DNA of 37,871 nt from a bacterium (GTDB lineage: Bacteria > Armatimonadota > Zipacnadia > Zipacnadales > UBA11051), in NCBI GenBank assembly GCA_030604405.1, contig JAUVVY010000039.1, forward strand, positions 1-37,871. The letters run 5' to 3'. How positions within the stretch are numbered: position 1 is the first letter of the stretch; each line of letters opens with the position of its first letter. Both the position numbers and the translations under genes were made by a program. Positions 9,736 to 15,964 of the stretch are shown in pieces. The notes below the pieces were generated by a model that saw only the letters and a list, made by a program, of their open reading frames with translations, ran no database searches and was not told the DNA's origin.

Positions 9736-9786
9736 AATTATTCTCTCCCATCGCATGGCTTGAGTTTCCCTAAAATTATCGCGTAG

Positions 9787-9805
9787 GTCGGGCATCCTGC
9801 CCGAC
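9787..9805. repeat. Short palindromic repeat, GTCGGGCA type
   Basis: GTCGGGCA (9787-9794) and TGCCCGAC (9798-9805) form a perfect 8-bp stem with a three-base loop. The same arms occur at 11365-11409, where the loop is expanded. A related palindrome occurs at 16181 and a decayed one at 17302. It lies in the 135-bp gap between two minus-strand genes and could also act as a terminator. Confidence 0.7.
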
Positions 9806-11298: not shown

Positions 11299-11364
11299 CA
11301 GTTCCTCCACCAAAGCATTCATTCTTCTGTCGCGCGGCTTGGGCATCCCCCAAAAACCCCGTGG

Positions 11365-11409
11365 GTCGGGCATCCCGCAGGCCCTGAGCTTGTCGAAGGG
11401 CTGCCCGAC
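11365..11409. repeat. Nested palindromic repeat: CCCTGAGC element inside a GTCGGGCA element
   Basis: The outer arms GTCGGGCA (11365-11372) and TGCCCGAC (11402-11409) match the 9787-9805 palindrome. Between them lies a copy of the second family, CCCTGAGC through GTCGAAGGG (11382-11400), whose own ends GCCCT and AGGGC pair. It lies in the 296-bp divergent intergenic region 11299-11594. The rest of that region holds the AAAGGA-type ribosome site of the lyase gene and no obvious consensus promoter. Confidence 0.7.
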
Positions 11410-14500: not shown

Positions 14501-15964
14501 ATGAGAGAGGTCATTGTGAGTGCAGCGTTAGCACTTATGGCAGGGGGCTTGGTCTGGTATGTGCTGCGAGGTATTCGGGCCGGACCGCCCGGCTGGGCCC
14601 TAGGGGCGGCGGCGGCCGGTCTCGCTTTCGTTCCGATCGCGTTGTTGATAGCGGTGGGTGACTCCGTATGCGTCTGCTTCTGGAAGATGCCCCCGTACGA
14701 CGAGCAGGCCATTTTCACAGTTAACGCTGATGGGACAGGCCGACAGAGGTTGACAGAGACCGAGATCCAGTACGGAAAACCCACCTGGTCTCCTGATGGC
14801 AGCAGAATTGCCGTCGCCGTTTTCGGCAATGAGTACACGGGAATCTACATGATGAATCCCGACGGCACCGATTGGCGCGTAATCGTGGATAGTGTTGCCG
14901 ACGCCCACGCAGCGGGCCCCTCAGGCCATACCGGGCCGTTCCCGGAGTTCCATATACCTTCGGACTCGCATCCGACGTGGTCTCCGGACGGCACCAAGAT
15001 CGCCTTCACCAGGTACCTGCAGCCAACCAAGACTAGGCTCTACGTAGTCCGTAAAGACGGGACGCAAAAAACAAAACTCGCAGACGCACCAACACTTGCT
15101 GAAGACGTCGCGTGGAGTCCCGACGGCAGCCGACTTGCATTCACCTGCAGGCACGACGGCGACCACGACATCTGTGTCGTAAACAGCGATGGAAGCGCGC
15201 AGGTGAATCTCACGACAGGCCCCGGGTATGACAGTCACCCCGCCTGGTCTCCTGATGGTAAGCGACTTGCTTTTCATAGCTACCGGGATTACGCGTGTGG
15301 TATCCATCTCATGAACTCCGACGGTAGCGAGCCGAGACTCCTCGCGAAGAGCTGCGGAGGATATCAGCCGCCATGGTCGCCAGATGGTGAAAAGGTTGCC
15401 TTTACGGCCGTGCGCGGCTCCGCCACCCAGGTGTGCGTCATAAACGCGGATGGCACCGACGAGCATGCCCTCACAGACTACACCGAGGACGATATGATAG
15501 GTAACCTGTGCTGGTCTCGCGACGGCAGCAGGCTTGCGTTCTGGCGTTTCCCGCGTGGTACAGAATACGCGTGCGATCACGCCGACATAGTCGTTATGAA
15601 TGCAGATGGCAGCGCAGCCACGCGGGTGGCAACCATTGCTGTACGTGTTCTTGGCGAATATGAGTGGCCGAACGCGCGAACCGTGCCATCCGGCTTTGCG
15701 TGGTCTCCTGACAGCCAGAAGATTGCTTTTGCTAGCATCGACACATCGGCTGCCGTCACTGAAAGCCCTAAGACTCTCGTCACTTTATTTGTGTTCCTGT
15801 TCTTTAGCATCTGTGGCCTGGTCGCGGTCGGATCGGGTATTCTTTCCCTCCGCAAGAAGGGCGGGTGTCTTGCCGCCATTGTGTCCATCGTTTGCGGAGC
15901 CGTGGCCACCGCACTGCTTGTTGCATGGGTTGTGTCGTGTTGGTCGCTGGGGGGTGTCGGCTAG
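14501..15964 (+). CDS. Membrane-anchored WD40-like (PD40/TolB-type) beta-propeller protein
   Basis: Two N-terminal hydrophobic segments (near residues 5-22 and 30-52) and two C-terminal ones (about 430-450 and 455-480) flank a propeller. I count seven WSPDG-type repeats, including PTWSPDGSRIAV, VAWSPDGSRLAF, PAWSPDGKRLAF and FAWSPDSQKIAF. Each is paired with an MNPDGT or INADGT type loop, consistent with a complete propeller. The domain resembles the periplasmic propeller of TolB, but without TolB's N-terminal domain. The ATG at 14501 has no ribosome site. A GTG at 14516 has GAGAGG five bases upstream and could be the real start, which costs only five residues. It probably works outside the membrane as a binding or sensing scaffold. 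No partner is evident nearby. Confidence 0.75.
   Translation: MREVIVSAALALMAGGLVWYVLRGIRAGPPGWALGAAAAGLAFVPIALLIAVGDSVCVCFWKMPPYDEQAIFTVNADGTGRQRLTETEIQYGKPTWSPDGSRIAVAVFGNEYTGIYMMNPDGTDWRVIVDSVADAHAAGPSGHTGPFPEFHIPSDSHPTWSPDGTKIAFTRYLQPTKTRLYVVRKDGTQKTKLADAPTLAEDVAWSPDGSRLAFTCRHDGDHDICVVNSDGSAQVNLTTGPGYDSHPAWSPDGKRLAFHSYRDYACGIHLMNSDGSEPRLLAKSCGGYQPPWSPDGEKVAFTAVRGSATQVCVINADGTDEHALTDYTEDDMIGNLCWSRDGSRLAFWRFPRGTEYACDHADIVVMNADGSAATRVATIAVRVLGEYEWPNARTVPSGFAWSPDSQKIAFASIDTSAAVTESPKTLVTLFVFLFFSICGLVAVGSGILSLRKKGGCLAAIVSIVCGAVATALLVAWVVSCWSLGGVG

Follow-up and report, generated by a model that had tools for sequence, protein, structure and literature searches.

Two forms of a hairpin in the window

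The stretch of DNA analyzed here (the window; 37,871 nt) belongs to G000, a 4.37 Mb assembly of 96 contigs, and carries two copies of a short outer hairpin, termed A herein, one of which holds an inner element, termed B, in its loop. A relative of A with GTCGGGCT..AGCCCGAC arms is termed A'. The features of the two copies are as follows.

9783..9786, + strand: GTAG tetranucleotide, 5' foot of the empty A hairpin (window sequence)
9787..9805, + strand: empty A hairpin GTCGGGCA-TCC-TGCCCGAC (shuffle test; 65 exact genome copies)
11332..11349, + strand: left half-hairpin of A type, degenerate (GCGCGGCTTGGGCATCCC), located 5' of the composite (by eye)
11361..11364, + strand: GTGG tetranucleotide, 5' foot of the filled A hairpin (window sequence)
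11365..11372, + strand: A left arm (window sequence, shuffle test)
11376..11401, + strand: inserted B unit of 26 nt, with leader CGCAGG, core and trailing C (comparison with the empty form; a 26-bp unit present or absent between orthologues elsewhere)
11382..11400, + strand: B core CCCTGAGCTTGTCGAAGGG, an imperfect palindrome (98 genome copies)
11402..11409, + strand: A right arm (window sequence, shuffle test)

A preliminary description of this DNA had noted a palindrome with a three-base loop at 9787-9805 and the same arms around a second element at 11365-11409, and both statements are exact. The sequence at 9783-9805 reads GTAG-GTCGGGCA-TCC-TGCCCGAC and that at 11361-11409 reads GTGG-GTCGGGCA-TCC-[CGCAGGCCCTGAGCTTGTCGAAGGGC]-TGCCCGAC, with 26 nt between TCC and TGCCCGAC; the two hairpins differ solely by this bracketed stretch and one foot letter. 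Compared with the empty form, the insert (CGCAGGCCCTGAGCTTGTCGAAGGGC) extends beyond the 19-nt core and also takes in a leader of 6 nt, in which GCAG resembles GTAG. It can equally be placed at 11375-11400, an ambiguity of 1 nt.

The A arms (GTCGGGCA/TGCCCGAC, loop of 1-30 nt) were found at two places in the window; 100 shuffles yielded none. A single exact copy of CCCTGAGCNNGTCGAAGGG is present in the window, at 11382-11400 (chance expectation, 0.15), together with three more matches that each have three mismatches. Both A copies are located outside likely coding regions, a position scored for these two copies. Degenerate left halves like that at 11332-11349 are present at other copies, and arrays of half-arms occur elsewhere in the genome.

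Genome-wide copies of the empty and filled forms

Across the whole genome the A arm pair was detected at 76 places, with 1 for a reversed-pattern control. Empty A accounted for 65 exact copies and 6 with one mismatch (control, 0), and empty A' for 58 copies. The filled 45-nt form had 17 copies with at most three mismatches, all of one length and layout (control, 0), and the B core CCCTGAGCNNGYCGAAGGG had 98 copies (control, 0). A and B are thus both short hairpins in many copies, as REPs are.

Collecting both loop versions had been proposed in the preliminary description, with the caveat that a long form existing simply as a separate, always-intact repeat would speak against movement. The shared layout of the 17 filled copies agrees with that caveat, but B also occurs in other hairpin families. 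The 45-nt form is a recurrent type, yet not merely that, and B is not confined to A because the same insert is found in an unrelated hairpin, C, and inside B itself.

Hosts, nesting depth, and orientation of B

B occupies fixed points in its host loops, which are those of A, A', C, and B itself, and empty versions of A, A', and C coexist in the same genome with filled ones. Nothing lies beyond TCC in 72 of the 132 A/A' arm pairs in the G000 stretches, and 19 of the 132 carry 26 nt there, 17 of which are B. Stacked B units extend A/A' loops to 54-55 and 80-81 nt beyond TCC in these stretches; further B-bearing loops measure 27, 34, 62, 91, and >100 nt, so that the step sizes are not perfectly regular. 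Not all A loops of 26-28 nt hold B: left half-arm arrays account for 2 of the 19 with 26 nt and for 12 of the 14 with 27-28 nt. Left half-arms with A+T-rich spacers were observed in those 12 loops and in 5 of 8 loops of 53-55 nt.

Hairpin C (GCGCGGGCTTG^TACCGCGC) takes B with the leader GCGYAGG into its loop. Its 19 arm pairs comprised 12 that were empty, three with 26 extra nt, two with 54, and one with 68; the nineteenth joins two neighboring copies and was set aside. Within B itself, 28 of the 98 copies were assigned by rule to the site CCCTG^AGC, with the leader CCGYGTGCG, and 9 of 98 to GAGCTTG^YCG, with the leader CTGAAAG. These nested units are 28 or 26 nt long and reach up to three deep, three layers being present at loci L057 and L099.

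By host rule, 77 of the 98 G000 copies of B were placed in A/A', C, B, or D, four were ambiguous, and 17 were unclassified. The classification was meant to reveal a free-standing source copy of B; several of the 17 unclassified copies look nested by eye. Under a looser rule, 23 of 70 distinct B contexts in G001, a congener of G000, were unclassified. A flanking stem of at least 6 bp was observed around 31 of 98 B copies; at random places the rate was 4.5%, and none of the 65 A copies had one. This is supporting evidence only, as the test fails to distinguish the B-in-B cases.

If double-stranded DNA were inserted into a near-palindrome, both orientations would be expected. B followed the GTGG/GTAG strand of its host in 32 of 32 A/A' loops holding CCCTGAGC in G000, a count that copies with extra outer half-arms enter more than once. 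The C loops of G000 gave six forward and no reverse copies, and the A/A' loops of G001 gave six to one; the single reverse case is a 39-nt inverted B pair.

Empty and filled loops at orthologous loci

The two hairpins of the window had been read as an empty and a filled site and hence as direct evidence of movement. As such this does not stand, since they are paralogues at different loci and the pair alone is not an empty/filled site; the idea behind it is partly supported, as orthologous loops lacking the insert were found in G001. The gene downstream of the window composite (ORF from 11595) has relatives in G001, G002, G003, and G004. At this locus, the G001 and G004 contigs start inside the neighboring gene, and the G002 counterpart (L159) has no CCCTGAGC and a single GTCGGGCA that is inside the gene.

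Exact copies of B numbered 98 in G000, 71 in G001, and 0 in the same-genus G002, G003, and G004, and their presence in the first two would represent a recent burst or arrival. Matched loci of G000 and G001 are 85-94% identical; G001 is a fragmented assembly (~600 contigs, 87% completeness, 8% contamination). When 126 G000 sequences (125 stretches and the window) were compared with 120 loci of G001, 102 pairs had HSPs of at least 180 bp, many of them repeat-driven, and the 42 with enough matched sequence were aligned. These revealed 22 clean indels of 10-250 nt, a number that covers all kinds, coding repeats included. The loci had been picked for A or B in G000, and the bias toward filled sites in that genome is therefore one of ascertainment.

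Exactly 26 bp are present in an A' loop of G000 at L155 (contig C96; L325 in G001), and the loop is empty in G001. The probe matched on both sides (97% over 78 nt), and one arm base near the insert also differs. L121/L357 has B in G000 and a B-less loop in G001, where the left arm holds another hairpin. A 28-bp B layer inside B is confined to G000 at L119/L354 (identity, 92-93%); this insert is a different B variant from its host B, so it is no plain local duplication. Also confined to G000 is a 39-bp inverted B pair at L036/L290 (98% over 120 nt, 90% over 609). L072 and L104 resemble nested events and were downgraded for one poor flank, a short flank match, and a synteny break.

Junction ambiguity was 1 nt in all five probed nested events (L155, L119, L036, L072, and L104). 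MITEs or DDE transposons produce a target duplication of several bases, and no such duplication was seen in these five. At the half-layer indels L139, L047, and L087 the ambiguity was 14, 6, and 9 nt, respectively. Neither A' nor B was recognized by eye in the intergenic stretches of the outgroups G002 and G003 at the L155 locus, which fits either polarity of the change. A further locus, L141/L335, has a CTCGGCCTG^CAG.. host with B in G000 and a different palindrome with a further hairpin in G001; the loop contents appear swapped.

A RAYT gene and the tags of the hairpins

A REP-associated transposase elsewhere in the genome, the other check proposed at the outset, was found. A profile search of G000 gave one Y1_Tnp match (C2:14144-14413); the RAYT gene lies at L016:1411-1896. 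The protein scored 110 bits against NF047646 (NCBIfam REP_Tyr_transpos; cutoff, 80) and 32 bits against the IS200 model (cutoff, 55), and it aligned with the Escherichia coli TnpA-REP structure (PDB 4er8; E = 7e-7) across the H-x-H and Y regions. It has the features of RAYT/TnpA-REP, a Y1 HUH transposase of the REP-associated type, and its nearest named relative found was from a Candidatus Zipacnadia MAG (66%). Zipacnadia belong to the Armatimonadota, and the host is therefore likely to be Armatimonadota-like. GTGG-tagged A'-like hairpins with one extra loop T lie upstream of the gene and tandem GTAG-tagged C hairpins lie downstream. The RAYT gene is thus placed between its REPs, as in a REPtron. 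B was absent among these flanking hairpins, which we count against RAYT involvement.

The tags were examined next to the hairpins. Empty A/A' hairpins had the 5' foot GTGG in 63 of 72 and GTAG in 6 of 72 cases in the G000 stretches, and GTAG in 39 of 67 and GTGG in 25 of 67 in 60 G001 stretches. Tagging of this kind, a mark of REPs, is clear for A/A' and mixed for B: the 17 B units in 26-nt A/A' loops carried GTAG in 7 cases, GCAG in 9, and AAAG in 1, and the B-in-B leaders (CCGTGTGCG and CTGAAAG) are not GTAG.

According to the accessible text of PMC8266576, TnpA-REP cleaves REP DNA at C/T beside the hairpin, one enzyme also at C/A; a GTGG-tagged REP is cleaved at CC, and a GCAG tag is barely cleaved in the Stenotrophomonas maltophilia system. 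The A junction can be written as C/T or C/C and the A' junction as C/A or C/C. Those of C and B misfit the published C/T or C/A cleavage, which, like the GCAG on 9 of the 17 B units and the B-in-B leaders other than GTAG, speaks against RAYT involvement. A further such point is that the presence of B and that of Y1_Tnp do not track each other across 61 genomes: Y1_Tnp, with RAYT and IS200 types taken together, was present in 12 of 14 genomes with B and in 34 of 47 without it. The G030 assembly, 84% complete, contains 13 copies of B, and no Y1_Tnp was detected in it. A single B copy was present among 116 loci, comprising 112 RAYT-neighbor or relative loci from other genomes and four outgroup loci. 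Taken from the sequences, a link between RAYT and the movement of B is plausible.

Proposed mechanism

We propose, with a probability of roughly 0.5, that REPs have entered the loops of other REPs as single units, probably through strand transfer by RAYT. The chances are about even, likewise, that the 45-nt repeat represents B, a 26-nt unit with a GTAG/GCAG-type leader, in the apical loop of the REP-like, GTGG/GTAG-tagged A. B would move by single-strand cleavage and strand transfer: RAYT, a Y1 HUH enzyme, would release B as a folded strand and transfer it to the single-stranded tip of a second folded hairpin. Every B would in turn supply a new insertable loop, so that growth would proceed inward in layers of 26-28 nt, and secondary slippage between repeated arms may add or remove half-layers of 14-15 nt.

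A more specific version, which we hold tentatively and at somewhat less than even odds, is a self-nesting mobile hairpin, with single REP units rather than doublets placed strand-specifically into REP loops and their own copies, driven by RAYT at hairpin tips. If it is true, every insertion recreates its own target and leads to onion-like inward growth.

Alternative explanations

Copying between repeats, which would need no transposase for most copies, is an unlikely account: A[B] would have arisen on one or a few occasions, after which recombination or template switching between repeats that share arms and flanks would have turned empty A copies into filled ones, or filled into empty. It agrees with the 45-nt layout fixed in 17 copies, with the common flanks of filled and empty copies (...TCCCGTGG[..]TCCGTTGCCG), with mixed arms (GGGCA with AGCCC) that look recombinant, and with the arm base changed near the insert of L155 between G000 and G001. 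If the long form had spread ready-made, filled copies would be expected to share flanks. When 20+20 nt around each of the 17 filled copies were compared, the listed nearest neighbor was an empty copy for 12 of them, the window copy included, which argues against copying; the filled-to-filled score with ties, 5.5 of 17 versus 3.07 in shuffles (p = 0.10, a weak test), is weakly in its favor. The two filled copies at L076 are near-identical duplicates and those at L074 and L089 are mutual nearest neighbors; both cases look like shared descent and suit copying. On this weak test, repeated filling, by insertion or conversion, suits the flanks better than one travelling unit. Copying alone also leaves the 26-nt insert in the unrelated C and the 28-nt self-nesting unexplained.

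That the layers were built in replication, by slippage or hairpin-primed template switching and not by transposition, seems to us rather improbable. Long palindromes provoke slippage, and the indels of 14-15 nt between direct repeats that distinguish G000 from G001 at L047, L139, and L087 look like its products. The nested inserts, with their 1-nt ambiguity, do not, and they carry leaders or B variants missing from the empty site, so that a donor elsewhere is needed.

Precise loss, in which excision emptied ancestrally filled loops in G001, is less probable still. The outgroups do not decide, and enzymes of the IS200/IS605 type do excise precisely. The excess of filled sites in G000 follows from how the loci were chosen, however, A is mostly empty (65 exact copies versus 17 filled), and exact deletion is unlikely where direct repeats are missing; excision by RAYT would, moreover, still make the element mobile. 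An assembly artefact in G001, suggested by its fragmentation and contamination, is scarcely credible when several loci differ by exactly one element length, their flanks intact over as many as 609 aligned nt, and when empty copies abound in both genomes.

Relation to known systems

The nested repeats described here share several traits with REPtrons, REPs with RAYT of the GTAG super-family (PMC3733652 and PMC8266576, accessible portions), namely, GTAG/GTGG 5' tags, many copies, and a flanked RAYT gene. Relative to what those portions describe, the difference is that here one REP family fills the loops of another and of itself, in stacked layers, and loops at orthologous loci can be either empty or filled. 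REPs within palindromes have been noted in Anabaena variabilis, T. roseum, and H. neapolitanus, the target palindrome of T. roseum itself being in hundreds of copies (PMC3733652, section 7). This passing remark concerns, as here, REPs inside target palindromes; section 7 reports neither empty sites at orthologous loci nor self-nesting nor a test of orientation, and the hosts described here are themselves tagged REPs.

The 39-nt inverted B pair resembles the REP doublet of REPINs (PMC3116915). The available excerpts of that paper report REPINs in or next to REPINs, argue that the doublet is the mobile unit, and describe a search for singlet excision that found none; the moving unit, single REP or doublet, is disputed there. 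What differs in our data is that singlet-sized units of 26-28 nt are present or absent: the inverted pair varies at L036, and singlets of 26 and 28 nt vary at L155 and L119. In Volvox organelle DNA short palindromes are often inside other palindromes, as here (PMC2670323), and a further likeness is to the GC clusters of yeast mitochondria, which are mobile, merging, and shuffling (PMC4478555). Both concern organelles and other sequences, and fixed 26/28-nt layering or GTAG tags are not described in the accessible parts of either source.

A literature search with the repeat sequence as a string returned unrelated subjects only, among the matches listed. Publications on nested or inserted REPs or palindromes, including PMC12306157 and PMC6006769, described no nested empty/filled system in their accessible text (few subscription journals were covered). 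Nested REP-like repeats are already known; what is new is stepwise, strand-biased, singlet-sized nesting with empty sites.

The spread of REPs is called poorly understood in the accessible part of PMC8266576, which also reports that TnpA-REP cleaves and joins REP DNA in vitro. The singlet-size empty and filled sites of G000 and G001, with their sharp junctions, orientation bias, and loop target, offer a rare before-and-after view, and target choice, strand specificity, and the unit of movement become directly testable. The nesting also suggests a stepwise origin of complex intergenic palindromes of ~100 nt.

Other repeats

Other families were seen by eye to nest as well, with CGGGTACCCACT..AGTGGGTGAGG inside CCCCTCTCCC..GGGAGAGGGG and GGAGGGGCCGAAT..GGCCC hairpins whose loops differ in content (loci L041, L057, L063, and L146). 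At L063/L322 a 51-bp hairpin of the GGAGGGGCCGAAT..GGCCC type is present in G001 and absent from G000. Loci L153, L058, and L126 have tandem left half-arms (GTGG-TCGGGCATCC) with an A+T-rich spacer, ~28 nt each, ending in a complete A-type hairpin; these half-elements are truncated at the loop. A composite of the same layout as A[B] occurs at L175 in G034, a genome of another family.

The window itself carries two further sets of repeats. Direct repeats spaced by 300-315 nt with 88-94% identity occupy positions 1-865 and probably encode a repeated protein domain. At positions 14784-15729 a 31-nt repeat is found six times; it encodes a W-S-x-D-G-type motif, and the copies probably represent the blades of a beta-propeller.
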